Assembly (NCBI GenBank): GCA_017541275.1
Contig: JAFXZM010000032.1
Location: 1 to 49,594 of the forward strand
Direction of reading: 5' to 3'
Length of the DNA stretch: 49,594 bases
Source: Oscillospiraceae bacterium
Lineage (GTDB): Bacteria; Bacillota; Clostridia; Oscillospirales; Ruminococcaceae
Shown: positions 32,842-48,043 of the stretch, one piece after another
How positions within the stretch are numbered: the first letter of the stretch is position 1
Layout: each line of letters opens with the position of its first letter
Position numbers and translations under genes: made by a program
The notes under the pieces: model-generated
Databases searched by the model: none
What the model was told of the DNA's origin: nothing
What the model saw: only the letters and a program-made list of their open reading frames with translations

Positions 32842-32870
32842 TTGCCATTTTTGATGCGGTATGGTATAAT
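32842..32870 (+). promoter_or_regulatory. SigA-type promoter upstream of ECF module 1
   Basis: TTGCCA (32842-32847) and a perfect TATAAT (32865-32870) with an extended TGG and a 17-base spacer. It lies upstream of the ECF-type promoter motif, giving the operon a basal promoter in addition to an autoregulated one. Confidence 0.75.
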
Positions 32871-32902: not shown

Positions 32903-32929
32903 TGTAACCTGCCCGCAGGGATTCCCGTC
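32903..32929 (+). promoter_or_regulatory. putative ECF-type autoregulated promoter, module 1
   Basis: TGTAACC (32903-32909), exactly 16 bases, CGTC (32926-32929), 67 bases from the -35 to the sigma ATG. The AAC core and CGTC box match the general ECF promoter style (known for SigW-like factors). The same layout recurs at 46063-46089 and, with an altered -10, at 43754-43780. Confidence 0.65.
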
Positions 32930-32969
32930 GTAATGAGTAGGGACAGGTCAGCGAAAGGAGGCACACTGC

Positions 32970-33524
32970 ATGGATGACTGCGAAATCATTGAGCTGTTCT
33001 TTCAGCGCGATGAACGGGCACTGTCAGAAACCTCCGGCCGCTACGGCGGCATGTGCTGCCGGCTGGCCAAACGGATTCTCGGCTCACAGGAGGATGCCGA
33101 GGAATGCTGCAACGATGTGCTTCTCAAGCTCTGGAACGCCATTCCCCCGGACAGACCGCAGCGCTTTGCCGCGTATCTGGTCCGTGTCGTCCGAAACACC
33201 GCGCTTGACCTCTATGAGAAGCTCCATGCCGCAAAGCGCGGCGGTACGCAGACTGCCGTTGCACTCGACGAGCTCGCGGAATGCCTCCCCGCGCCCGATG
33301 ATGTCGAGGAGGCGCAGTCCGCCGCCGAAACAGGCGAAATGCTCAACCGCTTTCTTGCCGATCTGCCCGACCAGACACGCAATATCTTTGTTCTGCGCTA
33401 TGTATATCTCATGCCGGTCAAGGATATTGCTGCGAAAACCGGCGTATCTGTCAGCAAGGTCAAGGTCGTGCTGCACAGAACGCGCAATGCCCTCAAAAAA
33501 TGGATGGGAGGTGAAATCCCATGA
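32970..33524 (+). CDS. ECF-type RNA polymerase sigma factor, module 1
   Basis: A 184-residue group 4 sigma factor with only regions 2 and 4. Region 2 (about 20-90) has RILGSQEDAEECCNDVLLKLWN and the AYLVRVVRNTALD helix that reads the -10 box. Region 4 (about 125-178) has LPDQTRNIFVLRYVYLMPVKDIAAKTGVSVSKVKVVLHRTR with the helix-turn-helix. AAAGGAGG precedes the ATG. The stop overlaps the next gene by 4 bases (ATGA). It has no C-terminal extension, so control must come from the membrane partner. Strongly similar to the sigma factors at 43823 and 46128, including the DAEE-NDVLL block. Target promoters are unknown but its own upstream motif is a candidate. Confidence 0.95.
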   Translation: MDDCEIIELFFQRDERALSETSGRYGGMCCRLAKRILGSQEDAEECCNDVLLKLWNAIPPDRPQRFAAYLVRVVRNTALDLYEKLHAAKRGGTQTAVALDELAECLPAPDDVEEAQSAAETGEMLNRFLADLPDQTRNIFVLRYVYLMPVKDIAAKTGVSVSKVKVVLHRTRNALKKWMGGEIP

Positions 33525-34618
33525 ATGCAAAGACACTTCTGCGGGGATTCAGTGAAATTGACCCGCGCTATCTCGAAGCCGCTATGCAGGCGGGCGCTGA
33601 TGCAGAGGGCGAACCGGAGACCGGTGCCAAAGCGCATGCCAAATCTCCGCCGGAGGCGGAAGCGATGCCTGTTGTGACGGTTCACCGCAATGTCGGAAAA
33701 CGGCTGCGGATTGCCGGATGGGCGGCAGCAGCGGCATGTCTGCTGCTGGTCGGCGGCGCAATGCTGCATCTGCGGCAGTCCGCGAAGGAAAATGTGCTGA
33801 TCCCGCCGGCCTCACAGGACGATCTGTATGTCGAGATCACCGGCACCGCCGCGACTGCGCTGACAACCGTGTCCGCACAGACCGTGACTACGCACACAAC
33901 GGCTGCCGGTCATATTGTTTCGACCGCCGGAACGCTTCCCCCGGAGGACGAATTCACACCGAGTGAGCCGCCGCAGCCGGCTTTCACAGAAGGCAGCACT
34001 GCGGCACAGACTGTTCTGACACAGACAGCCGTGCAGACAGCCCTGACGGACGGTGAGACTGCGCCGTCTGCCGAAACGCGGGCAACAGAAGATGCAGGTG
34101 TGCATCCATTCCGGCCCGGTACTGCGTATGCGGGACAGATGCCTGTTCTGGTTGCAATGGCAGACCGCAGCGGCACATTGCCCGGCGGCATGCAGTTTGA
34201 GGCGGTGAATGATGCACAGGCGGTTTTGCAGTATCTTGCCGGGGATGATCCGGCCGTAACTGTCGGCGAAGGACAAAAGGACAGCAGCACCGCAGATTTC
34301 ATCATGCGTTCACCCGAAATGCTGCGCGTCTGCTGGCAGACCGCCGATCACCGCTGGGAGGAATACGGCGTTCAGAGTGCCGTGCTCGATGCAGACGGCG
34401 TGCTGCACCTCAGCGTTTGTATGTATTCCGGCGGCGGGCAGACAGAAACAGCCCCCTGGATCTATGAAACCGCACTGCTCTTTGCCGGCGGTTCCATGCC
34501 GGCAATTCGTGACGTTCAGCTCGATCTGCAATACTTTGAGGAGCAGAACGGCATTTCGCAGTGGCTCGCATTCAATGCGGCACTTCAGGACGATGTTCAG
34601 ATTCAATATGCACAGTAA
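33521..34618 (+). CDS. single-pass membrane partner (anti-sigma-like) of ECF module 1
   Basis: A 365-residue protein. The cytoplasmic part (1-60) begins MNAKTLLRGFSEIDPRYLEAA, the motif shared with the partners at 44377 and 46685. One membrane helix spans about 64-84 (AGWAAAAACLLLVGGAML) with basic residues on the inner side. Outside is a Thr/Ala-rich linker (about 100-190), then a compact C-terminal domain (about 195-365) I cannot assign, with TLPGGMQFEAVNDAQAVLQYL and beta-type segments. There is no zinc-binding HxxxCxxC anti-sigma motif. Overlap with the sigma gene implies equal synthesis and a regulatory role; anti-sigma function is inferred. The gene is 31 bases before the dockerin protein. 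Confidence 0.75.
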   Translation: MNAKTLLRGFSEIDPRYLEAAMQAGADAEGEPETGAKAHAKSPPEAEAMPVVTVHRNVGKRLRIAGWAAAAACLLLVGGAMLHLRQSAKENVLIPPASQDDLYVEITGTAATALTTVSAQTVTTHTTAAGHIVSTAGTLPPEDEFTPSEPPQPAFTEGSTAAQTVLTQTAVQTALTDGETAPSAETRATEDAGVHPFRPGTAYAGQMPVLVAMADRSGTLPGGMQFEAVNDAQAVLQYLAGDDPAVTVGEGQKDSSTADFIMRSPEMLRVCWQTADHRWEEYGVQSAVLDADGVLHLSVCMYSGGGQTETAPWIYETALLFAGGSMPAIRDVQLDLQYFEEQNGISQWLAFNAALQDDVQIQYAQ

Positions 34619-34649
34619 AAAATCTCAATATGAAACGGAGGTCATTCAA

Positions 34650-37600
34650 ATGAAACACTATATGAGAATTCTGGCCGGACTCGGCAGCCTTGCAATTCTG
34701 ATGCAGAACGGAGCGGCATTCCCTGCGGTGCCCCGCATCACTGCACAGGCCGCATCGGTCGAATCCATGCATCTTCGTGTATTTACCTACGATTTCGGCA
34801 GCTTTCAGGCGCTTTATGATACCGTATCAAAAAAATGGTACGATACGGAGGGCAATCCGCTGGAGGCTGAGAGTAAAAATGAGCAGTCAGCGCGGTTCAA
34901 CGGGCAGGATGTGACCGTCAACCTCACCACCGGAAATGTCGTTGACAGCATGGGCGGCGAGCTGCCGGCGCTGAGTCAGTGCGTCGCGGACTACCTCGGC
35001 CGCACCGATGAATGGATTTCCTATGCGCCGCAGTATTACGACAAGGCGCAGCAGCGGTATGTAGATGTTCCGAAGCCGGAGCAGTTTCCGCTGAGCTTCC
35101 GCTTCGATCAGGAAAGTGATAAATTTGCCTGCAATCTCTATTTCGGCGATCAGTTCTACTGCACGCTGGCCTATCAGCAGCAGGGCTATGCAGCGGAGGC
35201 TGCCGTGCTGGGCGAGCGCACGACCGCGCGGTCATTGCCGTTTACCGATATCGGCGACACGACCCTTGACGGCGAGGTCAATGTCTGCGATGCCGTGCTG
35301 ACCTGCCGCACCGTCGGCGATGAGGTGGATGTGCCGATCACCGAGCTCGGCCGCGAGCTTGCAGACGCAAACAAGGACGGCAAGGTCGATGCCGAGGATA
35401 CCTCGACCATGATGTTCCGGCTCGCGGGCATTGACCCGGTGGCCAGACGCTATCCCGATATCATTGATACATGGGCGGAGATCCGCACATCCCAACAGCT
35501 TCAGATTCCGGTGAATGAAATGTATGCAATGGCGGAGAAATCCGGCAATCAGCTCGACAGCGGCGCGGCCTACACCGGCGGATTCGCATGTGCCTCATCT
35601 CTGTCGGCGGCGGGCGATGAGCAGGCCACATCGGAGATTGTCTACTATTACCGCGCACCGGATGCGACGCCTTCCGGCATTTACTGCATCCGGAAAGCAG
35701 AGTTCAACCCGAACAACAGAACTGTTCAGCTTTACATCGGCCGCTGCGAATCCGCAACGACAGATGTTCAGCCGGATGTCAGAAGATTCTCGCTGCTGCT
35801 GCCGGATGAGAAATATGATTTCAGCGGCTGGGATTTCAAGCTCATCGCAGAGGATATGAGCTATAATGCGGTGCAGGCAGCCGCAGATGACCGCAGCGTG
35901 CAGCTCATCAAGAAGGGCACTGCGATGACCGATAAAATCGCTGTCGAAGATGTGCAGCAGACCAGTCCGGATGCGGATTCGGCAGAGGTGTTCGAGTACG
36001 GCGGCATGATCGAAAACGGCGGCGAATTCGAGCTGTACGATGTTGTCCGCACGGACGATTATGACACGCTGAAGCTCTCCTATGTCAATGGAAAATTCAA
36101 AAATGGGACAATCCATATCAACAGCATCGAAATGGATTCCTTCGGCGCATTGGTCGTGCATGCATCCAGACTGCCCTATGACGGCGGAAAACCGAATGCG
36201 GGCGTGCATCTGACCGACATCAGGCTGCAGCACGGCGTCCTCCCGGAGCCGACCGGTGTCCGCTATGTATTTGACGGTACCGATGCGCTGCAGGAGCTGA
36301 CCGCAATCAGCGCTGCAAAGCAGGACAGCAGCACCAGACATGCAATGTTTGCCAGAGCAACGGTCGATGACAATGCAGAGTGCGAGACCATCCGCTCCTG
36401 GCTGGAGGGAGGAACGAACGGCTACTTCGCAACATTCTTCTGCGATGCGCATACCCGCTTGGTGGATGACGAGGATGTTGCAGCACTTCAGGGGCAGTTC
36501 CGAGATTCCGCTTCCGTTTATGTGATGCATGACTGCCAGACACATTATGCGGTCACCGGCGCCGTGCTCGATCAGTTCAACCATACGCTTACGCTGACCG
36601 TCGGCTATTACAACGATCAGAGCGGCTTGGCCTCTGTTGAGCCGATCTTCTCCAGAGTGACGCTCGACTGGCCGCAGTATCGGCTCCAGTGCTCGAATGT
36701 CAAAATGGATGTCCAGTTTGTCAATTACGGCACGGATGAGGAAGCCTTTGAAGCGGCGAGCAAGAGCTATGTCTATATCGAAGATGTGCTCCATGAGAGT
36801 GAAGGCACCGCACAGCATGAGATTCCATGCAGCATCACAGAGGATTGGATGGATTTCCCTGCACCCGGTGATTCAGAGCCGGCTATGCCTTCTGTCTGGC
36901 AGGTCAGAAATGCAAATGAATACAAGGCATACTGCAAGGCGTTCGGCCTTGAGGAAAATGCCGATACCGCAGAGCGCCTCAAAACCAAGGACCTCATTTT
37001 CGTCAGAGCAACGGATTCCCCCTGCCAGCAGGAGCGTCTGAGCCGCGTGCATGTGTCCTATGACGGAACACTGGCAATGTATATCGCGCAGTGGGGTCTG
37101 GAGGATGTCTGCTATGAGATCGGTCTCCCGTCGGTCTACACGATCGAAACCGCGAAGGGCGCGATGCCGACCGTCGGAAAGGTGAAGATCAGCTATCTGA
37201 ATTATACCAGCAGCGTCACTGAGGGCTACGGTGCCGATCATATGCGCTTTGTCCTCGAAAACTGGAACAAGGCTGACAGCATCACCTATTCTGAGCCGGT
37301 TGTGCCGAGAGAATGGCTGCTTGGGGATACGGCGGTCGAGAGCCCGCAGATGTGGTATGAAACATCCGAAACCCTGCAAAGCAGCAAGGCCAATGCGGCG
37401 GCAGGCTATGTGCTGACAGACCCCGAAGAAATCGCGGAGCAGCTCACACTCTGCGGCGAAAATGCAGCAGACTGGGATATTTCCGGCTGTGATATGCTGG
37501 TGCTGAGCGTCAACGGCCTGAACACGGGCGTTCTGCCGGCACTGAAGTCCGCAGAGATCGACTGCCCGAGCGGCAGGCTCAATGCCGAAATGGTCACGTA

Positions 37601-38720
37601 TCTTCCGCAGGAAAGCGCACAGAATCGCCTCTGTGCCGTGAATATGTGCTTCCTGATTGAAAAGGACAAGCTGCCGGACTTCAGTTCCGTGAATGTGAAT
37701 GTCACCGCTGCAAGCGATGCTTATACCGTGCAGTCCGCGCAGAAAACCAAACTCACGATCTCCGCAGTACCGAACAGCAATGCCGGCCGGCAGGCTGCCG
37801 TGCTCACCGGAGCGCCGGTCAGCAGAACGCTGCCCATGGCGGACGATTATCCGGCAGCACCGATCACCGATGCATCACTGATTATTGACAAAACTGCGGT
37901 CGAAGAGCTGATAAAGGGCGGCGGCTGGAACAGCGATGCAATAAAATCCCTTGACCCGCAGAAAACGTCGCTGCTGCTCGTGTCAGTACCGAATTCCTAT
38001 CAGCAGATTCACATTGAGAAAGCGTCCTGTGCGTCTGACGGTCAGATCTGGCTGGAAATCGGCGGCTGCGGCAAAGCAGAAAACCACACGACAGAATTCT
38101 GTCTTGCACTCCCGTCCAACCAGACGGTTGTCAGCTATGCATCGGATACTGTTATCGTTTCCGATCATAACTACGGTGATGCCGAAAGCATCGAATACCG
38201 CATGACTGAGCCGCGCAGCCTGACCGTTTCTGAGGCAAAGAGCTCTGAGCTGGAAATCATCGGCGATCAGGCGGGCTGGTTTGAGTCCGCTGATTCCGCC
38301 GCAGAAGCGGAAAAACCGGCATATGAGGTCATCAAGGCCGTTGACAATGAGCGCGAAAAGCAGGAAGATCTGCTGAAGGCTGCCGGGCTTCCGGTTCCGG
38401 AGCAGCCGCTCGACCTGCTTGTGCTGCGGATTCCGATGAACTGCGGCGGCAATCAAGCCGGTGTGCAAAGCCTGTTCCTGCGCGACGACTACGTCCTGCG
38501 TGCGAATGTGGGAATTTATACCGGAGAGATGCAGTATACTGCTATGACCCACATGACGATTGTGATTCCCGTTCATCAGGGCATGCTGGATCCGATGGAG
38601 GATGTTGAATTCGGTATTTCCAAATTCTGCTGGGATAGCTGGAACCGGGATCTGTCAGAGCAGCTTTTCCGGGAATCGCTGCCGGAAAAACTGTCAATCA
38701 ACACGCTTGAGGGCTTCTGA
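34650..38720 (+). CDS. large secreted protein with an internal dockerin and repeated modules
   Basis: A 1,356-residue exported protein, third gene of the ECF module 1 operon. I chose ATG at 34650 because AACGGAGG lies 7 bases upstream; the in-frame start at 34377 lies inside the preceding gene. The signal peptide covers about 1-35 (MRILAGLGSLAILMQ...AQAAS). Residues 203-262 are a type I-like dockerin: DTTLDGEVNVCDAVL and DANKDGKVDAEDT give two calcium-binding repeats. Dockerins normally sit at an end; here over 1,000 residues follow. That part looks like about seven degenerate modules spaced ~155 residues, each a helical stretch followed by a strand such as LLVLSV/LLLVSV/LLVLRI. No catalytic domain or carbohydrate-binding module is recognised. 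Dockerin means attachment to a cohesin scaffold; the rest may be structural, adhesive or an inhibitor-type part. Confidence 0.85.
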   Translation: MKHYMRILAGLGSLAILMQNGAAFPAVPRITAQAASVESMHLRVFTYDFGSFQALYDTVSKKWYDTEGNPLEAESKNEQSARFNGQDVTVNLTTGNVVDSMGGELPALSQCVADYLGRTDEWISYAPQYYDKAQQRYVDVPKPEQFPLSFRFDQESDKFACNLYFGDQFYCTLAYQQQGYAAEAAVLGERTTARSLPFTDIGDTTLDGEVNVCDAVLTCRTVGDEVDVPITELGRELADANKDGKVDAEDTSTMMFRLAGIDPVARRYPDIIDTWAEIRTSQQLQIPVNEMYAMAEKSGNQLDSGAAYTGGFACASSLSAAGDEQATSEIVYYYRAPDATPSGIYCIRKAEFNPNNRTVQLYIGRCESATTDVQPDVRRFSLLLPDEKYDFSGWDFKLIAEDMSYNAVQAAADDRSVQLIKKGTAMTDKIAVEDVQQTSPDADSAEVFEYGGMIENGGEFELYDVVRTDDYDTLKLSYVNGKFKNGTIHINSIEMDSFGALVVHASRLPYDGGKPNAGVHLTDIRLQHGVLPEPTGVRYVFDGTDALQELTAISAAKQDSSTRHAMFARATVDDNAECETIRSWLEGGTNGYFATFFCDAHTRLVDDEDVAALQGQFRDSASVYVMHDCQTHYAVTGAVLDQFNHTLTLTVGYYNDQSGLASVEPIFSRVTLDWPQYRLQCSNVKMDVQFVNYGTDEEAFEAASKSYVYIEDVLHESEGTAQHEIPCSITEDWMDFPAPGDSEPAMPSVWQVRNANEYKAYCKAFGLEENADTAERLKTKDLIFVRATDSPCQQERLSRVHVSYDGTLAMYIAQWGLEDVCYEIGLPSVYTIETAKGAMPTVGKVKISYLNYTSSVTEGYGADHMRFVLENWNKADSITYSEPVVPREWLLGDTAVESPQMWYETSETLQSSKANAAAGYVLTDPEEIAEQLTLCGENAADWDISGCDMLVLSVNGLNTGVLPALKSAEIDCPSGRLNAEMVTYLPQESAQNRLCAVNMCFLIEKDKLPDFSSVNVNVTAASDAYTVQSAQKTKLTISAVPNSNAGRQAAVLTGAPVSRTLPMADDYPAAPITDASLIIDKTAVEELIKGGGWNSDAIKSLDPQKTSLLLVSVPNSYQQIHIEKASCASDGQIWLEIGGCGKAENHTTEFCLALPSNQTVVSYASDTVIVSDHNYGDAESIEYRMTEPRSLTVSEAKSSELEIIGDQAGWFESADSAAEAEKPAYEVIKAVDNEREKQEDLLKAAGLPVPEQPLDLLVLRIPMNCGGNQAGVQSLFLRDDYVLRANVGIYTGEMQYTAMTHMTIVIPVHQGMLDPMEDVEFGISKFCWDSWNRDLSEQLFRESLPEKLSINTLEGF

Positions 38721-38740
38721 TGAAAACAGCATAATACAAA

Positions 38741-38768
38741 GAGGGACACCCATTTTCGGGTGTCCCTC
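38741..38768 (+). terminator. hairpin after the dockerin protein gene
   Basis: Perfect 11-bp stem gagggacaccc/gggtgtccctc, 20 bases after the stop. The following cgcttgtc is only weakly T-rich, so it may need the next hairpin to act. Confidence 0.65.
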
Positions 38769-38786
38769 CGCTTGTCGATAAAGGAA

Positions 38787-38812
38787 CGGGGCATCCGAAA
38801 CCGGATACCCCG
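38787..38812. terminator. hairpin shared by dockerin and ptsH transcripts
   Basis: Stem cggggcatccg/cggataccccg with one mismatch. Followed by ctttatatac on + and by ttcctttatc on -, about 85 bases after the ptsH stop on the minus strand. Likely a bidirectional terminator. Confidence 0.7.
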
Positions 38813-38896
38813 CTTTATATACGGTAAATGCATATCCGCAGCCCGTCAGGGGAAACTGCTTATCTTGCAGCCTGCCGATCAGGACTGCGCTTTGTG

Positions 38897-39169
38897 TTAC
38901 CGGCTCTCGTCGCTGAAGCCGCTGTCTACCAGTTCAACCAGCGATGCGACTGCCTGCTCCTCGTCGGTGCCGTCCGCGATGATGCGGATTGCGGTGCCGC
39001 CGACAATGCCAAGCGACAGAATACCGAGCAGAGACTTCGCATTTACGCGGCGCTCCTCCTTCTCGATCCAGATTGCAGAGCGGAACTCATTTGCCTTCTG
39101 GATGAAGAATGTTGCAGGACGAGCGTGCAGACCCACCTGATTCTGAACCATAACATCTTTGATACACAT
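38897..39169 (-). CDS. ptsH: phosphocarrier protein HPr
   Basis: A 90-residue HPr. His15 in QVGLHARPATFFIQ is the site phosphorylated by enzyme I, and Ser46 in NAKSLLGILSLGI is the site of HPr kinase used in Gram-positive catabolite control. I chose ATG at 39169 because AGGAGAG lies 7 bases upstream; the longer frame to 39256 runs into the leader. No enzyme I gene is adjacent. In Ruminococcus-type cells HPr may serve mainly in regulation with few PTS transporters; that is inference. The leader is unusually long (about 270 bases). Confidence 0.95.
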   Translation of the reverse strand: MCIKDVMVQNQVGLHARPATFFIQKANEFRSAIWIEKEERRVNAKSLLGILSLGIVGGTAIRIIADGTDEEQAVASLVELVDSGFSDESR

Positions 39170-39448
39170 AAACTTTCTCTCCTTTGAATAATTCATTAAC
39201 CCGATATGCCAAAATAGACGGCTTATGCGGCCTGTTCCGTGGCTGCTCCGCCACACGCGGAAAACAAAGGCATGAATGACAGATGCTGAACGCTGAGTAA
39301 CGGAGAGGCACTGCGGTACTACGCTGCCTGACCAGCCGTATTCGCCGAATTAACGATATGTAATTCTGTTTGTAAATATACATAACGTATACTCACCAAA
39401 TCCCCAACTGCGTTCCGCTCTTTTTTATTTCCACGGAATCATGTTATC
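39170..39448 (-). promoter_or_regulatory. long leader of ptsH without a gene
   Basis: About 270 transcribed bases lie between the promoter and the HPr start. Possible structures include acgttatgta/tacatatcgt (near 39350-39390, one mismatch) and gtggc/gccac (near 39237-39252). I do not recognise a known riboswitch, T-box or RAT-type antiterminator site in it, and no supported ORF. Confidence 0.45.
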
Positions 39449-39477
39449 ATTATACTGTTTTTCTCCTGATTCGTCAA
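39449..39477 (-). promoter_or_regulatory. SigA-type promoter of ptsH
   Basis: On the minus strand TTGACG (39472-39477), 17 bases, TATAAT (39449-39454). Expected start near 39442. Confidence 0.8.
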
Positions 39478-39579
39478 TGTCTTTTCTACACAAAAGCCGC
39501 TCTTTGGAGCAAATTTCTCCCCTATGCTACATTTGAAACGATAGTGCGCCTCTCGGTTTGGGCAGTTTCACGAAAACGG

Positions 39580-39647
39580 ATTGTTGAAAGTGGTTGAAAA
39601 CCTTTGTTTGCGGTGCCGCTTTTCAACAATAGAATTTGTTGAAAGTC
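39580..39647. repeat. cluster of four GTTGAAA/TTTCAAC elements
   Basis: attgttgaaa (39580-39589), ggttgaaaacc (39593-39603 area), cttttcaacaat (39619-39630) and tttgttgaaag (39635-39645) lie within 68 bases, in direct and inverted orientation. Pairing of the first and third would give a hairpin. The cluster lies just past the trmD stop and about 100 bases upstream of the ptsH promoter. Confidence 0.55.
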
Positions 39648-40359
39648 ACAACAACCCATTCGTTTCCTGTTCTTTTGACCATTTTGCATAAAGGTCCGGA
39701 CGGCGTTCTCTGGTCAGGAGCCGGCTTTGCTCGGCGCGCCACTGTGCAATGTTTTTGTGATGTCCGCTCAGGAGCACCGGCGGAACAGCCTCGCCCTCCC
39801 AGATTTCCGGCCGGGTATACTGCGGGTATTCCAGCAGGCCGTTGAAGTGGCTTTCCTCCTCATAGGCCTCGGAGGAGGGGAGCACATTTTCACACATCCG
39901 TGCGATCGCATCGGTAAGCACCAGCGCAGGCAGCTCACCGCCCGTGACAACATAATCCCCGATTGAGATTTCCTCATCGCAGATGCGGTCGAGCACGCGC
40001 TGGTCGATGCCCTCATAGTGGCCGCAGAGCAGGAACAGCCGCGGCATCTGAGCCAGCTCCCGCACGCGCTGCTGCGTCAGCGTGTGCCCTTTCGGGGACA
40101 TATATATTGTATGCATCGGCACTGCCGAGCGTTCCTGCACTGCCCGCCAGCAGTCATAGACGGGCTGTGCCTGCATGACCATGCCCATGCCGCCGCCGAA
40201 CGGCGAATCATCGACGCGGTTGTGGCGGTCGGTCGTGTAGTCGCGAATCTGGTGACAGTTGACCTCGATTGCGCCCTTTGCGCGTGCGCGGCCGAGGATG
40301 CTCGCGGACAGAACCGCCTCGCACATCTCCGGAAACAGCGTTGCAATCTCAATAATCAT
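39646..40359 (-). CDS. trmD: tRNA (guanine37-N1)-methyltransferase
   Basis: TrmD methylates G37 next to the anticodon and prevents frameshifting, using SAM bound in a trefoil-knot SPOUT fold. The 237-residue protein has the family's normal length. Signatures: IATLFPEMCEAVLSASILGRA, DDSPFGGGMGMVMQAQP, LLCGHYEGIDQRV, the knot EEISIGDYVVTGGELPAL and the C-terminal PPVLLSGHHKNIAQWR. Its ATG overlaps the rimM stop by one base (TGATG). It is the last gene of the Ca2+-ATPase-rimM-trmD transcript. Confidence 0.98.
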   Translation of the reverse strand: MIIEIATLFPEMCEAVLSASILGRARAKGAIEVNCHQIRDYTTDRHNRVDDSPFGGGMGMVMQAQPVYDCWRAVQERSAVPMHTIYMSPKGHTLTQQRVRELAQMPRLFLLCGHYEGIDQRVLDRICDEEISIGDYVVTGGELPALVLTDAIARMCENVLPSSEAYEEESHFNGLLEYPQYTRPEIWEGEAVPPVLLSGHHKNIAQWRAEQSRLLTRERRPDLYAKWSKEQETNGLL

Positions 40360-40865
40360 CAGTCAAACAGTCCCTCCAGCGGACGGATGACGATGCGGTC
40401 TGCGATGTCGTCAATTTCCAGCACAACCTGCGGAATCACCGGCACCAGCAGCGTTTTTCCGTCCGGTGCCGCAACCTCATACACATCGTTCGCACCTGTT
40501 TGCAGGACATCGCGCAGTGTTCCGTATTCCATGCCGTTGTCAGCATCGACGACAGTCATGCCGATCAGGTCCTGCACAAAATGGGTCTCATCATCCAGCT
40601 CGACGTCCCTGCGGTTCATATACAGCACGGTATTCCGCAGTGCATTCGCGGCCTCCGGCGTGTCGATGCCCTCAAATTTAACGAGTGCCATATTTTTCTG
40701 CACGCTTGCCCGCTCGATCTGCATCGGCTCATGTGCATTTCCGCGGTAGAGCGTTTCAAAGCTGCACAGAAATTCCGCCGAATCACACCACGGCATGACC
40801 TTGACCGTGCCGTTCAGTCCGTGAACATTGACGATTTTGCCGATTTCCAAAAACTGTTTTTTCAT
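40359..40865 (-). CDS. rimM: 16S rRNA processing protein RimM
   Basis: RimM binds S19 and helps mature the 30S head. The 168-residue protein shows the N-terminal RimM barrel (LEIGKIVNVHGLNGTVKVMPW, residues 5-25) and the C-terminal PRC-type barrel (YEVAAPDGKTLLVPVIPQVV...IRPLEGLFD). I chose ATG at 40865 because AAGGAAT lies 7 bases upstream; the longer frame to 40898 overlaps the ATPase stop. It is 10 bases after the P-type ATPase gene, an unusual partner, and is coupled to trmD. Confidence 0.97.
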   Translation of the reverse strand: MKKQFLEIGKIVNVHGLNGTVKVMPWCDSAEFLCSFETLYRGNAHEPMQIERASVQKNMALVKFEGIDTPEAANALRNTVLYMNRRDVELDDETHFVQDLIGMTVVDADNGMEYGTLRDVLQTGANDVYEVAAPDGKTLLVPVIPQVVLEIDDIADRIVIRPLEGLFD

Positions 40866-40875
40866 GTGATATTCC

Positions 40876-43515
40876 TTATTTTTTTCCGAGGGCGGCACGC
40901 TGAATCACCTTGACGATCTCAACGATCGGGACGATTGCAGCGGCGAGCAGAAATGCCCAGAGATACTGCGTACCTGCCAGCTTTTCCAGCGAGAATACGC
41001 CGCGCAGAGCCGGCACCAGCATGACCGGAACGGTCAGTACGAACGACAGCAGGATTGCGCCGAGCAGTGCGAGATTGCGGCTGTGCATGGTGAATACGGA
41101 ACCGCGCAGGCTGCGCATGTTCCATGCGTGGAGCATTTCGCAGACAGAGAGCGTCAGGAACGCCATGGTCGTGCCGGCAGCAGGGGAGGTCTGTGCGCCG
41201 ATGACATAGGAGGCGATCGTCAGGCCGGAGATCACCAAGCCCTGCCAGAGCAGGTTCACGCCCATGCCGTCTGCAAAGATATGGGTATTGCTGCTGCGGG
41301 GCTTGCGCTGCATGATGCCGCGTTCTGCGGGCTCCATGCCCAGCGCAACGGCCGGGAAGCAGTCAGAGATCAGGTTAATCCAGAGCAGATGCACCGGGCT
41401 GAAGATCGTGAACGCGCCGCCGGTGAGGGAGCCGAGCCCGATCGTTGCGATGAGGATGCAGATGACCTCACTGAGATTGCTCGAAAGCAGGAACTGGATT
41501 GCCTTGCGGATATTGTCGTAGATGCGGCGGCCCTCCTCGACCGCACCGACGATTGTTGCGAAGTTGTCGTCCGTCAGCACCATATCCGCAACGTTCTTTG
41601 TGACGTCGGTGCCGGTGATGCCCATGCCCACGCCGATATCGGCGCTTTTGATCGAGGGTGCATCGTTGACGCCGTCGCCGGTCATAGCGGTCGTCATCTT
41701 CTTTTTGCGCCATGCATTGACGATGCGTACCTTATGCTCAGGCTGCACGCGCGCATAGACGCTGTAGTCGCCGACATGCTCGTTGAATTCGTCGTCCGGA
41801 ATTGCAGAGAGCTCCGCGCCGGTCAGCGCTTTCTGTCCTTCGCCGAGAATGCCGAGCTCCTTGGCAATCGCGACGGCCGTATCTCTGTGGTCGCCGGTAA
41901 TCATGACCGGACGGATGCCGGCAGTGCGGCAAAGTCCGATCGCATCCTTGACCTCCGGACGAACCGGGTCGATCATGCCGGTCATGCCGATATAAACGAG
42001 GTCATGCTCCAGCGCGGTCGGAGAAATATGGTCGGGCAGCATGGTCAGCTCGCGGCAGGCGGCCAGCAGCACGCGCAGTGCCTTGTCTGCCATTTCCTTA
42101 TTCTGCCGCAGGATCTCGGTGCGGTCGGCATCGGTCATCGGACGCGCCTTGCCGTTTTCGAGAATCATCGTGCAGCAGCGCAGCACCTCATCGGGTGCGC
42201 CCTTGGTGTATTGGATATAGCCCTTTTCTGTCTGATGCACCGTGGACATCATCTTGCGGAGCGAATCAAACGGTGCTTCTGCGACACGCGGCGTTTCTTT
42301 TTCCAGTGCATATTTTTTGAATCCGCATTTGTTCGCGTAGGCGACGAGCGCGGCCTCTGTCGGCTCACCGGTCACGGTATCGTCCGCATTGAGCTGCGCG
42401 TCACAGCAGAGTGCCATGGCCTTTGCGAGCAGGTCTTTGTCATCGGTGTGTTCTTCGACGACGGTCATTTTATTCTGCGTCAGGGTACCGGTCTTGTCGG
42501 AGCAGATGACCTGCGCACAGCCCAGCGCTTCAACGGCGGTCAGCTTGCGGATAACCGCGCCGCGCTTCGACATGTTTGTGACGCCGATCGACAGCACGAC
42601 CGTCACGACGGCGGCAAGGCCCTCCGGAATCGCGGCAACCGCGAGGCTGACGGCGATCATAAACGAATTGAGGAAGCCCGGAAGCGTAACAGCGTGGGAC
42701 TTCATATACATTTGCAGGACACTGATGCCGAGAATCAGCACACAGATGCCGAGCACAGCCACGGACAGAATCTTGCTGAGCTGCGAGAGGCTCTTTTGCA
42801 GCGGTGTTTCATCGTCCTCCGCATTGGCGATTGCGCCGGCGATCTTGCCCATTTCGGTCTGCATGCCGGTTGCCGTGACAACTGCCTCTGCACGGCCGTA
42901 GGCGATGCTGCTGCCCATGTAGATCATGTTTTTGCGGTCGCCGAGCGGCACCTCATCGCCGGAAAGCGGCTCGGTATCCTTATCCGACGGGACGCTCTCA
43001 CCGGTCAGCGCGGATTCCTCCGCCTTCAGAGCGGCGGCTTCGAGCAGGCGGCAGTCCGCAGGGACATTGTCGCCGGCCTCAAGCGTGATGACATCGCCGA
43101 CCACAAGCTCCGAGCTCGGAACGACGATCAGCTCGCCGGAGCGGAACACCTTGCTCTGCGCGGCACTCATTGCCTGAAGCGCTGCAATCGCTGCCTCCGC
43201 CTTATTTTCCTGATAGACGCCGAGCACGGCGTTTGCGATGACAACAAACAGAATAATGAACACATCGGCTTCGAGCTTGCCGTCCTGAATGATGCCGGTA
43301 ATCGCAGAGACAGCGGCCGCAGCGAGCAAAACCAGAATCATCGGGTTTTTGAACTGTTCGAGGAATCGTGCAGCCAGAGATTTCTGCGGCGGCTCATCGA
43401 GCTTGTTCGGCCCGTTTTTCGCGAGGCGGGCGGCAGCTTCGGGAGCGGTCAGACCCTCCTTGCTGCTCTGAACCTCCTTGAGTACTGCTTCGGTCGATTC
43501 CAGATAATGCTTCAT
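40876..43515 (-). CDS. P-type Ca2+-transporting ATPase
   Basis: An 879-residue P2-type (SERCA/PMCA-like) pump that exports Ca2+ with ATP. The cation ATPase N-terminal domain (1-60) leads to membrane helix pairs (about 57-100 and 250-310 with [14 protein letters not shown]), the actuator motif TGES, the phosphorylation site [13 protein letters not shown] near 345, the nucleotide domain, the hinge [21 protein letters not shown], and six C-terminal helices. The metal-site PEGL and late [13 protein letters not shown] motifs fit Ca2+ rather than Na+/K+ transport. The promoter is about 80 bases upstream, with a leader hairpin ggcgca/tgcgcc (43546-43587). It is co-transcribed with rimM and trmD. Confidence 0.93.
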
Positions 43516-43594
43516 TTCCTTAACAAACCTCCCATTCGTACATCAGGCGCACACAGTCCGCCGGTTCTCCGGCATTCTGCATGCGCCGACTACT

Positions 43595-43623
43595 ATTATA
43601 GCAAAAAACGGAACAAATTACAA
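43595..43623 (-). promoter_or_regulatory. SigA-type promoter of the ATPase-rimM-trmD operon
   Basis: On the minus strand TTGTAA (43618-43623), 17-base spacer ending TGC, TATAAT (43595-43600), extended -10. Confidence 0.8.
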
Positions 43624-43707
43624 GCCGCTTTGCAAAATTTTACAGAAACCTAACATTGCAGGCACGGCGAAGCCCCGCAGATTCCGGGCCGCGGGGGTTA
43701 TTATTTC

Positions 43708-43736
43708 TTGCGGAAAGATGCAGAGTATAGTATAAT
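43708..43736 (+). promoter_or_regulatory. SigA-type promoter upstream of ECF module 2
   Basis: TTGCGG (43708-43713) and a perfect TATAAT (43731-43736), 17 bases apart. As in module 1 it lies just upstream of the ECF-type motif. Confidence 0.65.
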
Positions 43737-43753
43737 AGAAGTGTTCGGGCGGG

Positions 43754-43780
43754 TGTAACCTCAGCGCAGAAAATCCATAC
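43754..43780 (+). promoter_or_regulatory. putative ECF-type promoter, module 2
   Basis: TGTAACC (43754-43760) is identical to the -35 of module 1 and lies 69 bases before the ATG. The position 16 bases on reads ATAC rather than CGTC (a CTGTATA lies 3 bases further), so the -10 either differs in specificity or has a longer spacer. Confidence 0.5.
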
Positions 43781-43822
43781 TGTATAGGTGAGATCTCAAA
43801 ACGAATCAGGGGAGGTGAGAAC

Positions 43823-44380
43823 ATGACAGACCGTGAGCTGCTTGCATTATACGCGGCGAAGGACGAGCGTGCAATCGCGGAAACCGACGCAAAATACGGC
43901 AAAATCTGCCGGCAGACAGCCCGGCGCATTCTCGGCAGCGCAGAGGACGCGGAGGAGATCGTGAACGATGTGCTGCTGCGCGCATGGCGCAATGTGCCGG
44001 CGGGACAGCCGGAAAAGCTGCTGCCCTATCTGAAAACCATGACCCGCAATCTCGCAACCAACCGTCTTGACCGCTATACTGCGAAGCGCAGGCAGTGCGA
44101 ACGGAATTCCGCAGTGCTGGACGAGCTGTCCGAGTGCATTGCAGCGCCGGAATCCGTTGACGACGCGCTCGATCGGCGGCTGCTGGCGGAGGCGGTGCAG
44201 CGTTTTCTGCATACGCTCAGTGAGGAGGCGCGGGCGGTATTTCTGCTGCGGTATTATTATGTACTGCCGGTCGCGGATATCGCTGCACAGCGCGGCATCG
44301 GCATCAGCCGGGTCAAGGTCATGCTTCTCCGCAGCCGAAAGAAGCTGAGAGCTTATCTGGAACAGGAGGAATTCTTATGA
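43823..44380 (+). CDS. ECF-type RNA polymerase sigma factor, module 2
   Basis: A 185-residue group 4 sigma factor. Region 2 contains RILGSAEDAEEIVNDVLLRAW and the LPYLKTMTRNLATNRLDR helix. Region 4 contains LSEEARAVFLLRYYYVLPVADIAAQRGIGISRVKVMLLRSRKKL. GGGGAGGTGAG precedes the ATG, and the stop overlaps the next gene (ATGA). It is similar to the factors at 32970 and 46128 but is the most divergent of the three in region 2 (DAEEIVNDVLLRAW), which fits its altered candidate -10 box. The module is divergent from the Ca2+-ATPase operon. Confidence 0.95.
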   Translation: MTDRELLALYAAKDERAIAETDAKYGKICRQTARRILGSAEDAEEIVNDVLLRAWRNVPAGQPEKLLPYLKTMTRNLATNRLDRYTAKRRQCERNSAVLDELSECIAAPESVDDALDRRLLAEAVQRFLHTLSEEARAVFLLRYYYVLPVADIAAQRGIGISRVKVMLLRSRKKLRAYLEQEEFL

Positions 44381-45915
44381 CGAACCGTGATTTATTTGAC
44401 GCGATCGGGATGCTGGATGCGGCAGAATGCAGAAGGGCGCTTGCACCGAAGAAAAAAGCGCCCTCGCACGGCAGAGCGTTCCGCATCACGGCGGCAGTTT
44501 CGGCAGCGGCGGTGCTTGCGTTGACCGCAGGGGCATCGCTGTGGATATTCAGCCGTCTGAAGCGCGGCGATCTGCGTGTCACTGCACCGGCTGCGGAACC
44601 GAATGTACCGGCGTCGGAACTACAGGAAATTCTCGTGCAGGAGCGCACCGTTCCGTTTGACGATATTTCGGATGCCATGATCTGCTTCATGTCGCCGGCC
44701 TATGCGCCCTATGCGCTGACCGTTTCGGCAGCGGAGCAGCAGACGCTTGCTGCGGCGCTGGAACAGGCACACTGGACGGAAATCGACGGTGCGGTATCCG
44801 AACCGGACGGCGAGCACAGTCCGATGTATGTGTACAACAACGGAACGGCGTTCTGCGTGACGCAATGCAATCTGATGCAGGATGACCGGAATGTTGTAAA
44901 GATCGAGCAGAACGGCAGAAGCCGGTATTATGCGGTAGACAGTTCGGCATGTGCGGCGATCGCGAAGGCGGCGAATCCGGAACATGCGGACACAAAGAAC
45001 GGCAATCTGACATGGTGTCCGGTTTATTCGGTCAACACAGAGGATATCTGGAAAAACTTTGTGGTTGACCGGAAAGAATGCGACATGACAACAAAGGACG
45101 GCATATTCTATAAAATGAGCAACACCTGCGATTATTTTGACCGCGCATCGGGGCATGTCTATGAGCTTGAGCGTCTGGAGGAGAACTTTGTTCCGGCAAT
45201 TCAGAGCGGCGGACAGGTGACACAGCCCGGCGGCAGCAGCCTTGACGGAAATAAGCGCTGGTTCCGGGAGTATCAGTCCGTCTTCTCGACTGACCTGTGC
45301 GCTGCGTTTTCCGTTGAGCATACCGAGGTGACGCTTTGGCACTGCGATCCGGCGCGGATGTTATCGGATGATTCCGCGGAGTTGATTCCGGAGGGGATGT
45401 GTGGGGTATATACCGAACCGGAGCAGCGTTATCGGTTCGACCTGACCACCGGCGAATACGAAAAGATGCACAGCAGCCAGCACAGGTATGTCTCGCAGCC
45501 GGTCGAAAATGACGCGCATCATTGGTATGACGAGGAAGGCACGGATGTCTGGCAGGCGCGGAACAAGATCACGAACTGCGATTTTTCCGATGAAGCGATT
45601 TCGCCGTATTACCTTGCGCTGAACTATCTGTATGACTTTGACAACTGGGAAATCGCCGGAAATGAGACTGTGGACGGGCGGGAATGCGTCCGCATCACGG
45701 GACACCTGACCGGTTATCCGGCACAAAAGCAGCAGGTCGATGCCTTTGAAATGGATGTGGACATTGAGACCGGCATTCTTATGAAGCTCACGGGCTATGA
45801 CAGCGAAGGACTGATGAGCCGGCAGATCGTCGTGAGCGAGCTCCGGCTGAATGACGAAGCAGAGGACGTTGAGCGGCCGGATTTCACGGTGCTGACGGAG
45901 AAGAAGCAGCCGTAA
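44377..45915 (+). CDS. single-pass membrane partner of ECF module 2 with LolA/RseB-like outer domain
   Basis: A 512-residue protein. The cytoplasmic stretch is only ~35 residues and begins MTNRDLFDAIGMLDAAECRRA, the shared motif. The membrane helix spans about 36-58. Outside, residues ~75-200 form a first domain (ISDAMICFMSPAY...) and the C-terminal ~150 residues resemble LolA/RseB-type lipid- or protein-sensing folds, seen in IAGNETVDGRECVRITG and FEMDVDIETGILMKLTGYDSEG. In E. coli RseB is a separate periplasmic sensor for RseA-SigE; here sensing part and membrane partner may be one chain. No zinc-type anti-sigma motif is present. Anti-sigma action is inferred from the overlap with the sigma gene; the fold similarity is from memory and moderate. 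Confidence 0.7.
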   Translation: MTNRDLFDAIGMLDAAECRRALAPKKKAPSHGRAFRITAAVSAAAVLALTAGASLWIFSRLKRGDLRVTAPAAEPNVPASELQEILVQERTVPFDDISDAMICFMSPAYAPYALTVSAAEQQTLAAALEQAHWTEIDGAVSEPDGEHSPMYVYNNGTAFCVTQCNLMQDDRNVVKIEQNGRSRYYAVDSSACAAIAKAANPEHADTKNGNLTWCPVYSVNTEDIWKNFVVDRKECDMTTKDGIFYKMSNTCDYFDRASGHVYELERLEENFVPAIQSGGQVTQPGGSSLDGNKRWFREYQSVFSTDLCAAFSVEHTEVTLWHCDPARMLSDDSAELIPEGMCGVYTEPEQRYRFDLTTGEYEKMHSSQHRYVSQPVENDAHHWYDEEGTDVWQARNKITNCDFSDEAISPYYLALNYLYDFDNWEIAGNETVDGRECVRITGHLTGYPAQKQQVDAFEMDVDIETGILMKLTGYDSEGLMSRQIVVSELRLNDEAEDVERPDFTVLTEKKQP

Positions 45916-45980
45916 CAGCGTGGAGTGGATTTTCGGGGATTTTCAGCACGTAACCGGCGATGTCAAAGAAATCATAAAAC

Positions 45981-46012
45981 ACTGCCCCGGATATGATTCC
46001 GTCCGGGGCAGT
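45981..46012. terminator. hairpin after ECF module 2
   Basis: Perfect 11-bp stem actgccccgga/tccggggcagt with a 10-base loop, about 65 bases after the stop. T-rich only on the minus side, so terminator activity on + is uncertain. Confidence 0.55.
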
Positions 46013-46062
46013 GCGGCAATTCTGTGCGATTCCGGCATGTCTGAAAAAATTTTTTGAATTCC

Positions 46063-46089
46063 TGTTACTTTCCTGTTCCGGTTCCCGTC
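46063..46089 (+). promoter_or_regulatory. putative ECF-type autoregulated promoter, module 3
   Basis: TGTTACT (46063-46069), exactly 16 bases, CGTC (46086-46089), 65 bases from the -35 to the ATG. The spacer ends in TTCC immediately before CGTC, as in module 1. No SigA-like promoter is visible in front of this module. Confidence 0.6.
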
Positions 46090-46127
46090 TTATATTACAG
46101 AAGCGAAAAACGAAAGGAAGTGAATCA

Positions 46128-46688
46128 ATGACGCATGACGAAGTGATACTCCGGCTGTACCGCGACCGCGACGAGCAGGCTCTGACACAGACAGACGACA
46201 AGTACGGAAAGCTCTGCCGCAGCCTCGCATACCGGATTCTGGGCGATCGACAGGACGCGGAGGAATGTGTCAATGATGTGCTTTTGAAGCTCTGGAGCTC
46301 AATTCCGCCGGCGCAGCCTGAAAGTCTGACTGCCTACATTTCCGCTGTGACGCGCAATTTGTGCTTTGACAGGCTCGAAGCCGCACGCACGGAAAAACGC
46401 GGCGGCGGAGAGCTGCCCGCCGTGCTGGACGAGCTGGAGCCGTTTCTCGCCTCTGATGACGCCCCGGAGGACTGCATCGCAAAGATCGCGCTGCAAGAAA
46501 GCATATCCCGGTTTCTTGGCGCAGTACCGCGTGAGCAACGTCTGATTTTTCTTGCGCGGTACTGGTCATTCCAGCCAATCGCGGAAATTGCAAAGCAGCA
46601 TGATTCAACCGTCGGGCGCGTAAAAATGATATTAAAGCGGACAAAGGAAAAACTCAAATTATATCTGGAACAGGAGGGATTGCTGTGA
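46128..46688 (+). CDS. ECF-type RNA polymerase sigma factor, module 3
   Basis: A 186-residue group 4 sigma factor. Region 2 has RILGDRQDAEECVNDVLLKLWSSIPP and the AYISAVTRNLCFDRL helix; region 4 has VPREQRLIFLARYWSFQPIAEIAKQHDSTVGRVKMILKRTK. I chose ATG at 46128 because AAAGGAAG lies 8 bases upstream; the longer frame from 45993 overlaps the previous hairpin and the promoter motif. It overlaps the next gene by 4 bases (GTGA). Region 2 is closest to module 1 (DAEEC-NDVLLKLW), in line with their shared CGTC candidate -10. Confidence 0.95.
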   Translation: MTHDEVILRLYRDRDEQALTQTDDKYGKLCRSLAYRILGDRQDAEECVNDVLLKLWSSIPPAQPESLTAYISAVTRNLCFDRLEAARTEKRGGGELPAVLDELEPFLASDDAPEDCIAKIALQESISRFLGAVPREQRLIFLARYWSFQPIAEIAKQHDSTVGRVKMILKRTKEKLKLYLEQEGLL

Positions 46689-48043
46689 AAAAGCTCGATT
46701 TTCTGGACGCGCTGAACGGGATTCCGGAGGAATATATCAAGGAGCTGAACGAGTGGCAGAAATCCGGAGAGCCTCTCTCTGCGGAAGCAACGGAACCGTC
46801 GTCCGCAGCAATCGCAGAACCGGAACAGGAGGAACCCGGAATGAAACAGACACAAAAGAAGGATATTCCCGTCAAGTGGCTGAAGCCGGTGACGGTCGGC
46901 GTGTTCGGCGCGATCGCGGCCTGCATCGCATGTGTGATCTGGGTCGGCGCCAAGAACGCGAAAACAGAAAAGCCGGATATCACGCCGGCAGCACAGATTT
47001 CGGAGGAAATCTCAGAGCAGATTACGACTGCACCGCAGCCGCGGGCGATCGACCCCGATCAATTCAAAGGCATGGATTTCGAGGAGGCACGCTCAGTCTT
47101 ACAGGAGGCAGGCTGGCAGATCAACAAATCCAAGGAATTTGACGCGGCAGTTCCGGAGGGGCATGTGATTTACGCAGAATTCAGCGCCGATCAACCGGGC
47201 TATGTGACGGTAATAGTATCGGCAGGGCCTGCAGAGAATTCGGAGGGGGATACTGACAGAAAGACACCGCCGGATTTTGAAACGCTGAAGGGCATGGATT
47301 ATCACGAGGCGCTGAAGCTTCTGGATGACTGCGGCCTGTGTGCCGAACTGGAATGGCAGACAAGCGATGATGTGCCGAGAGGGCAGGTCATCGAGGTGCA
47401 GCCGACCGAATACACCGGCGATGTGCTGATGGTCGTTTCCGGCGGACTGAGCGATGAGAATTATGTGATCGTTCCGCATTTCATCGGCATGGAAATGAAA
47501 ATTGCAGTCTCTGAGCTGAACCGCATCGGACTGACAGCGGAATGCGTAGACAGAGAGACAAAGGCGAAGCCGGAAGATGACAGCCTGCAATACATTGTGG
47601 TCGATCAGAGCCTTGTGCCGGGCGATCAGGCCGAAGTCGGTACAGAAATCTTCCTGACAGTCAAATGCATGGACGATACGACAAACGATGTGCAGCAGGT
47701 TCGCATCAGCACGCCGATTCTCCGCGATCAGGACAAATGGGTGACGGTAGACGGCAGCCGGGCGGAGCAGTATTTCGAGCTGATTGACAGGTTCAGCATG
47801 AAGCCGGCAGAGCAGTCGCGGTTTGATTTTGACGGCGGCGGACTGCTCATCGAGCTGCGCTATGACAGCGAGACCACGCTGACCTACGAGCTGTTCAGCA
47901 GCGGACTGCTGAAATGCACGGTCGAGGGCATGTCTTACCCCAAAGAAAGCGGCAATCCCGAATATCTTGAGGAGACAACCGGAAACAGCGACAAGCTGCT
48001 CTGGATGATTCAGGAGGATCTTGTCAAGGTTTATCCGCAGTAA
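46685..48043 (+). CDS. single-pass membrane partner of ECF module 3 with three PASTA-like repeats
   Basis: A 452-residue protein starting with GTG. The cytoplasmic part (1-66) begins MKKLDFLDALNGIPEEYIKEL, the shared motif. The membrane helix spans about 67-88. Outside lie three PASTA-like repeats of ~65 residues: about 118-180 (FKGMDFEEARSVLQEAGW), 198-258 (LKGMDYHEALKLLDDCGL) and 266-333 (FIGMEMKIAVSELNRIGL), each ending in a VxxVVSxGP-type strand. The last ~110 residues form a separate domain with a strand-rich FDFDGGGLLIELRYD section. PASTA domains of Ser/Thr kinases and penicillin-binding proteins bind peptidoglycan fragments; no kinase is present here. A cell-wall-sensing anti-sigma role is inferred. 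Confidence 0.78.
   Translation: MKKLDFLDALNGIPEEYIKELNEWQKSGEPLSAEATEPSSAAIAEPEQEEPGMKQTQKKDIPVKWLKPVTVGVFGAIAACIACVIWVGAKNAKTEKPDITPAAQISEEISEQITTAPQPRAIDPDQFKGMDFEEARSVLQEAGWQINKSKEFDAAVPEGHVIYAEFSADQPGYVTVIVSAGPAENSEGDTDRKTPPDFETLKGMDYHEALKLLDDCGLCAELEWQTSDDVPRGQVIEVQPTEYTGDVLMVVSGGLSDENYVIVPHFIGMEMKIAVSELNRIGLTAECVDRETKAKPEDDSLQYIVVDQSLVPGDQAEVGTEIFLTVKCMDDTTNDVQQVRISTPILRDQDKWVTVDGSRAEQYFELIDRFSMKPAEQSRFDFDGGGLLIELRYDSETTLTYELFSSGLLKCTVEGMSYPKESGNPEYLEETTGNSDKLLWMIQEDLVKVYPQ

Follow-up and report, generated by a model that had tools for sequence, protein, structure and literature searches.

How a bacterium that carries a family of near-identical sigma factors keeps each of them from misreading the promoters of the others is an open question (it is described as such for the paralogous sigma factors of the SigI family in PMC6056542), and it is raised directly by contig JAFXZM010000032.1 of an Oscillospiraceae bacterium (assembly GCA_017541275.1), whose whole stretch of 49,594 nucleotides (nt; contig 57) we refer to as the window. 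The draft genome, 2.04 Mb and 75.6% complete, is that of a gut Ruminococcus-like bacterium. Three modules in the window each combine a gene for an extracytoplasmic function (ECF) sigma factor, a promoter of ECF type in front of it and an adjoining gene for a putative membrane anti-sigma protein, and they are members of one large ECF sigma/membrane anti-sigma family, for which a single genus offers many natural pairs to compare. Our account, to which we give a probability of about 0.86, is that this family is autoregulated, that each sigma factor has its own variant of a shared promoter and that cross-talk is thereby limited.

A sequence-only reading of the window had placed the boxes TGTAACC, TGTAACC and TGTTACT 67, 69 and 65 nt before the three start codons, and all of these positions hold: 32903-32909 before the ATG at 32970 in module 1, 43754-43760 before the ATG at 43823 in module 2, and 46063-46069 before the ATG at 46128 in module 3. 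In modules 1 and 3 CGTC indeed follows after exactly 16 nt (32926-32929 and 46086-46089), both spacers ending in TTCC, while module 2 has the same -35 with another -10 (ATAC, 43777-43780, spacer end ATCC). All three sigma factors matched Sigma70_r2 and r4_2 over the Pfam cut-off within 184-186 amino acids (aa), i.e., they have the layout of sigma2 and sigma4 only that marks ECFs. The promoters, the predicted start-site boxes behind them and the sigma genes are the following (bits refer to a promoter profile described below; EM stands for expectation-maximisation):

32903..32929, + strand: module 1 ECF promoter, TGTAACC-N16-CGTC (22.5 bits, but among the 34 training sites of the profile)
32930..32945, + strand: module 1 predicted start-site box GTAATGAGTAGGGACA (EM on upstream regions)
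32970..33524, + strand: module 1 ECF sigma gene, 184 aa, with D80, K165, V166 and H169 (Pfam Sigma70_r2, r4_2)
43754..43780, + strand: module 2 ECF promoter, TGTAACC-N16-ATAC (TAC kept in orthologues)
43781..43797, + strand: module 2 start-site box with the palindrome GAGATCTC at 43790-43797
43823..44380, + strand: module 2 ECF sigma gene, 185 aa, with N at the equivalent of residue 80 (Pfam)
46063..46089, + strand: module 3 ECF promoter, TGTTACT-N16-CGTC (16.1 bits, a training site)
46090..46105, + strand: module 3 predicted start-site box TTATATTACAGAAGCG (EM on upstream regions)
46128..46688, + strand: module 3 ECF sigma gene, 186 aa, with D, K, M and K at the equivalents of residues 80, 165, 166 and 169 (Pfam)

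The genome as a whole gave 25 matches to sigma-70 region 2, and 12 ECF proteins, three of them encoded in the window, make up one family, in which identity to the first member is 41-45%. A TGTNAC-N16/17-NGTC-like box lies upstream of all 12 family genes; its distance to the start codon, which had been called fixed, is as stated for the three modules but is not strict, ranging from 52 to 78 nt over the 12 genes. When the 120 nt upstream were scored against TGTAAC-N16..18-CGTC, every family gene reached 8-10 of 10, and 9 of the 12 were singly significant (p<0.05) against dinucleotide shuffles, with module 2, L012 and L019 at 0.05-0.09 (p=0.002, 0.084 and 0.006 for modules 1, 2 and 3, respectively). 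The nine sigma genes of other types that were scored (of 13; L001-L003 and L007 were left out) reached only 6-7, with p>=0.3 and some start codons uncertain. Two-block EM with 25 random-site starts, run on the 130 nt in front of the 12 genes and of 80 relatives, gave TGTAAC-N16/17-nGTC-TATAtaggTGAAGG as its best solutions, and this motif was present with P>=0.9 in 88 of the 92 regions (the misses being L035, L036, L056 and L096). Most relatives that bear a name come from gut or rumen and are bins of Ruminococcus, of other Oscillospiraceae or of clostridia; the records L082 and L085 are labelled as the archaeon Methanocorpusculum and hold clostridial ECF modules, their bin being probably mislabelled or contaminated.

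The promoter profile (R1) was searched together with a reversed-column control in this genome and 18 others of the genus, with at most 150 candidates scored per genome. Among the candidates scored it gave 152 matches in 17 of the 19 genomes, compared with 1 for the control. Each of the 18 other genomes has 3 to 37 matches to the module 2 sigma factor among the matches listed, and a few ECFs from outside the family are included in these counts: this genome has 12 family members but shows 16 matches. A genome-wide count of the motif had also been proposed as a check, with a frequency no higher than chance to be held against the idea, and on that measure the outcome was unfavourable: the bare word TGTWAC-N17-CGTC is not enriched in this genome (4 sites compared with 22 for the reversed pattern), the four sites being those of modules 1 and 3 and two within coding sequence. 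Given this lack of enrichment, we consider plain word counting unsuitable as a test; what does stand above chance is the position of the box upstream of family sigma genes and the full profile.

Sigma factors were paired with the promoter upstream of each of them (92 pairs in a first set and 100 from genus genomes in a second, 192 in all), and the 168 pairs with a profile score above 12 (80 and 88, respectively) were retained. Residue 80 follows the first base of the -10 almost without fault, with D found with C in 64/64 pairs and N with a base other than C in 81/82; in the remaining 22 pairs it is K (G or T in 9/9), G, S, T or Q, with no single rule. The mutual information between this residue and this base is 0.97 bits above shuffles, the next of 184 columns having 0.26. 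At the -35, residue 166 explains 0.90 bits of base 4 (V with A in 65/67, M with G or T in 64/64) and for residue 165 with base 6 the value is 0.87 bits (K with C in 94/94); residue 169 refines base 4 further (M166 with L169 gives G in 31/34, M166 with K169 gives T in 9/9). By alignment with SigW and other solved ECFs, these three residues belong to the region 4.2 stretch, where they presumably share the face of the recognition helix that is turned to the DNA.

The rule for residue 80 was spotted in the first set and then tried on the second, where D went with C in 37/37 pairs and N with a base other than C in 39/40. The two sets overlap in part (of the 88 second-set sigma factors, 7 are at least 97% alike to one of the first set and 8 at 90%), and a recount was therefore made on the 77 that remained after removing all those at least 90% alike to the first set or within the second: the counts were 36/36 for D with C and 32/33 for N with T at residue 80, 28/28 for V166 with A, 36/36 for M166 with G or T and 44/44 for K165 with C. 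Relatedness does not explain the covariation, because, on a tree for which the contact columns had been left out, path-disjoint contrasts went in the predicted direction in 23/24, 15/15 and 12/13 cases. Module 3 and L018, the closest pair within this genome (60% identity), differ in the -10 (CGTC/TGTC) together with D/N, and so do module 1 and L030, a relative at 66% identity (CGTC/GGTC).

We also turned the covariation into a code trained on the 156 pairs from outside this genome. It ranked the adjacent sigma factor first for 10 of the 12 promoters, and the own pairs scored 36.5 in total, while the highest total among 20,000 random assignments was 10.1; with sequences at least 70% alike left out (150 pairs) the result was still 10/12. 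In ten other genomes, with the same exclusion, the adjacent sigma factor was strictly first for 61 of 83 promoters and first or tied for 69. Taken with the profile search, this covariation supports the proposal of an ECF promoter of AAC/CGTC style with autoregulation (module 2 having TAC in place of CGT), i.e., that each sigma factor probably reads its own variant of the shared promoter, as far as sequence comparison can tell.

Sites of the same profile are also found in front of other genes. In this genome R1 found 15 sites at E<=10, of which 11 are own sigma promoters, all of them training sites; the promoter of L017, with an N16 spacer, was missed. One strong non-training site (C44:1216, 20.9 bits) precedes the gene for a secreted protein in which an NGDGKLD-like repeat is visible by eye, and is assigned by the code to sigma factor L020 (4.5; next L018 with 1.7) and not to its neighbour L023, and the remaining three sites are weak. 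Across the genus we inspected the best 112 of the 152 matches: at least 58 lie before a listed family gene and 54 do not adjoin a listed ECF gene. Of the latter, 40 were examined in addition to the site on C44, yielding 11 further family genes (recognised by eye) and 29 other sites. Exported proteins, called by a crude script rule and not by a signal-peptide program, follow 19 of these 29 sites (22 by eye) compared with 26 of 176 control open reading frames (ORFs) from 80 relative loci (p=4e-8; target ORFs of at least 90 aa, control ORFs of at least 150 aa), and the count is unchanged with one ORF per target. These counts support the enrichment near membrane and surface genes that the sequence-only reading had named. 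Among eight target proteins scanned, two matched dockerin, one leucine-rich repeats, one YfhO and one aconitase over the cut-off, and three, including that of C44:1216, had no match over it. Secreted proteins that look alike by eye (DxNGDGKLTxDDALxxAHExYYPGGAAAGY-like) recur behind these promoters (L142:1374-2588, L185, L186, L188, L189, L196, L208, L211 and L213); those of L142 and L185 had no Pfam match over the cut-off. On four contigs (G006:C110, G006:C138, G005:C17 and G001:C45) two or three profile sites occur together, neighbours being about 100-140 nt apart; on G006:C110 the third site lies about 1.1 kb off. One gene may be fed by several sigma factors in such places.

Downstream of the sigma gene, an ORF starts inside that gene in all 12 modules of this genome (with a 4-nt overlap in 11 and 8 nt in L012), and the same 4-nt overlap was found in 71 of the 77 relatives with such an ORF, among 80 examined. 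The encoded proteins have a short inner part with an LLDAIG.ID..Y-like start (about 30-65 aa before the membrane segment, by eye), followed by a single membrane segment, likewise seen by eye, and an outer part that varies. The further features of the window are:

32842..32870, + strand: TTGCCA-N17-TATAAT, a SigA-like and possibly basal promoter for module 1, its -10 preceded by TG (11/12 consensus matches)
33521..34618, + strand: module 1 putative anti-sigma gene, overlapping the sigma gene by 4 nt; one membrane segment by eye
34650..38720, + strand: gene for a secreted dockerin-bearing protein of 1356 aa with the start MKHYMR, probably the last gene of the module 1 operon
44377..45915, + strand: module 2 putative anti-sigma gene, one membrane segment by eye
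46685..48043, + strand: module 3 putative anti-sigma gene, three PASTA stretches past the membrane segment (Pfam PASTA, 1.1e-22)

The dockerin match is barely over the cut-off (23.3 vs 22.9 bits). The putative anti-sigma proteins of modules 1 and 2 had no Pfam match over the cut-off and no NCBIfam match, and that of module 3 matched PASTA without a kinase match in Pfam, so that it could be a cell-wall sensor on an ECF module; among the literature listed, no title joins a PASTA domain to an ECF anti-sigma. A class I anti-sigma domain (ASDI), with or without a zinc site, was considered for the three proteins of the window and rejected: none has a Pfam anti-sigma domain, and such domains comprise four helices over about 100 aa (101 aa on average, according to PMC7406223), for which the inner part is too short. 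Membership of the SigI/RsgI system was likewise discarded, there being no RsgI match in Pfam and the sigma factors being ECFs. In the outer part of the proteins downstream of L012 and L017 we noticed dockerin-like repeats by eye (GDVNMDGR and GDIDMDGR), which might allow the sensor to bind a cohesin. A strong hairpin (CACTGCCCCGGA...TCCGGGGCAGTG, by eye) without a T run on the + strand lies at 45980-46013, in the gap separating module 2 from module 3; it is absent from the terminator scan.

The promoter boxes could also be unused leftovers of gene duplication, the genes being read from SigA-like promoters further upstream. A good promoter of this kind does precede module 1 (weak when taken alone, with 1 found compared with a shuffle mean of 1.0), and a TATAAT with a poor -35 was seen by eye before module 2 (43731-43736). 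However, a consensus scan found no SigA-like promoter on the + strand before modules 2 and 3, the same profile occurs before unrelated genes for exported proteins, and leftovers would not covary with DNA-reading residues, yet 23 of 24 independent contrasts do; we thus regard this explanation as very improbable. A comparable doubt concerns the start-site box, which is purine-rich and overlaps the Shine-Dalgarno sequence in the shortest leaders (e.g., L032, L070 and L071), and which might then be the Shine-Dalgarno sequence of the sigma gene or a general promoter feature of these genomes. Positions 8-15 after the -10 are nevertheless conserved (0.6-1.1 bits each) in sites picked by -35 and -10 alone (50/92), and the box is also present in the 31 of them whose start codon lies at least 38 nt past the -10, both of which speak against a Shine-Dalgarno sequence; at 41 SigA-like promoters in the sequences analysed none of these positions exceeds 0.15 bits, which speaks against a general feature. 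We consider either version improbable, if less so than unused boxes. The distance of the box to the -10 is constant with both spacer lengths, and at the four of its positions that were compared with sigma residues covariation is low (0.25 bits or less), so that the sigma factor is probably not its reader. Shine-Dalgarno-like sequences can act as mRNA stabilisers, and the purine run past the conserved T and G of the box could bind the ribosome. By analogy with the sigma-H open complex, from which the promoter numbering is taken (PMC6411747), this T and G would fall at +1 and +2, within the core recognition element described as read by RNA polymerase (PMC6411747, PMC6372665).

A further question is whether each paralogue also reads the promoters of the others, which would couple all of them into a single regulon. 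The sequence-only reading had envisaged closely related specificities with possible cross-talk; the shared design stands, but the modules differ at matching bases and residues. Specifically, modules 1 and 2 differ in the -10 together with D/N at residue 80, modules 1 and 3 differ in -35 base 4 (A/T) together with V/M at residue 166, and the cross scores of the code are negative (-4.2 for promoter 1 with sigma 3 and -4.1 for promoter 3 with sigma 1, vs +3.7 and +4.2 with their own sigma factors). By the residue and base rules, the three modules therefore have different addresses (i.e., -35 bases 3, 4 and 6 plus the -10), a design that would limit cross-talk. The 12 own promoters have 12 different addresses and the 12 sigma factors 12 different residue sets at 80, 165, 166 and 169; with the -10s shuffled among these promoters, 3.15 colliding pairs were expected and 0 observed (P=0.006). 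A coupled regulon would fit the TGTNAC and NGTC-like boxes common to the paralogues, some single scores (2.1 for sigma factor L019 on the module 1 promoter vs 3.7 for that promoter's own sigma factor; 2.7 for the module 2 sigma factor on the L024 promoter vs 2.8 for that promoter's own) and the colliding addresses in 6 of 13 other genomes (G001, G002, G004, G007, G011 and G018). It fits poorly with a mean own score of +3.0 vs a mean of -6.2 for the others, with the absence of colliding pairs among the 12 here and with the covariation across independent contrasts, and we hold it to be unlikely. The comparisons support insulation over cross-talk, as a prediction rather than as proof, and selection for insulation is probable, not proven.

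Several results weigh against our account or its parts. In 14 genomes with partial module sets there were 14 colliding pairs compared with 19.6 expected (P=0.054, marginal), and random sets of 12 modules drawn from elsewhere had all addresses distinct in 8.5% of draws. The rates of shared addresses within and between genomes at equal identity were mixed (e.g., 3/69 vs 20/695 below 40% identity; 3/222 vs 61/2232 at 40-45%). No clear site (score of 12 or less) was present in 24 of the 192 pairs, which were dropped from the covariation counts. The code did not rank the own sigma factor first for the promoters of module 2 (rank 4) and L012 (rank 2), both of which have unusual -10s (ATAC and GGAC); the orthologues of module 2 with TAC were outside its training, L089 scoring 11.1, below the cut, and L111-L115 not being in the set. 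Finally, that the downstream protein binds the sigma factor is inferred from its position, from the overlap and from N-terminal motifs that are alike.

Promoter presence, covariation, address differences and the bias towards exported genes are sequence statistics, and they are compatible with a mechanism in which we infer sigma binding, release, feedback and start sites. The anti-sigma protein would keep the sigma factor at the membrane until an outside signal, read by the variable outer domain of the anti-sigma, frees it; the freed sigma factor would then fire the promoter of its own gene, a positive feedback, and in some cases also a few genes for exported proteins. Residue 80 (region 2.4) would set the first base of the -10 (D for C; N for T, G or A), and residues 165, 166 and 169 (region 4.2 helix) would set the variable bases of the -35. 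A more specific version, which we put forward tentatively and at somewhat less than even odds, is an address grid on which one genome could operate twelve or more ECF switches of the same family (one residue for the -10, three for the -35, with selection keeping its cells singly occupied), together with a family-wide start box TATAnnGGTGAAGG whose reader would be core RNA polymerase or, at the 5' end of the newly made transcript, the ribosome, and not the sigma factor.

Autoregulation, a residue-base code of ECFs and SigI paralogues with specificity bases are already known. SigW, SigX and SigM of B. subtilis are examples of autoregulated ECF/anti-sigma modules in Firmicutes. The modules described here resemble such Firmicutes modules in having sigma2 and sigma4 only, a promoter of AAC/CGT type and an anti-sigma (here putative) next door, which are given as hallmarks of autoregulated ECF modules in PMC8103513; they differ in that one family is present in many copies (up to 37 per genome among the matches listed, some of them other ECFs), in the short inner part of the anti-sigma and in the conserved box after the -10. 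The published ECF code, by which the bases of autoregulated promoters at -10 and -35 can be predicted from residues of sigma2 and sigma4 of the ECFs concerned (Todor et al. 2020, PNAS, as reported in PMC8103513, which also cites that work for about 55% of ECFs being autoregulated), differs, as summarised there, from the present one, which works within one family and compares paralogues inside one genome. SigI/RsgI of cellulosome clostridia, as described in PMC6056542, are similar in their paralogous autoregulated sigma factors, operon anti-sigmas, specificity bases and link to the cellulosome, but SigI is a separate type of sigma factor whose reading of the -35 is ascribed to the sigmaI-C domain, whereas here ECFs covary in region 4.2. 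Class II anti-sigmas (CnrY type) have two short helices that wrap sigma2 and sigma4. In the length of the inner part before the membrane segment, a likeness of size rather than of demonstrated sequence relation, the putative anti-sigmas here are like this type as outlined in PMC7406223. At the level of titles and abstracts we found no literature on this ECF family, the within-genome address grid or the start-site box; prior reports may exist in the bodies of papers, or in the ECF re-classification, Todor 2020 and work on -35 recognition. The residue and base rule is simple enough to be tested by one point mutation, and the code would let exported proteins of gut Ruminococcus relatives be assigned to the sensor that controls them.

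The divergent -10 of module 2, which had been singled out beside its shared -35, is real: its orthologues in five genus genomes (54-58% identity) and L089 also have TAC. A pattern made from module 2-type sites found one site in each of 6 of the 19 genomes, always before the module 2 gene; finding these six is by construction and the actual result is that there was no further site, so that by this strict pattern no further target of the module 2-type promoter was seen in the 19 genomes. Together with the TAC of the orthologues, this marks the -10 of module 2 as a conserved specificity. The palindrome GAGATCTC is common to the five orthologues as well; invariant in 6 genomes (43790-43797 here, and L323-L328) and situated at the predicted start of the module 2 transcript, it could be an operator or an RNA element.

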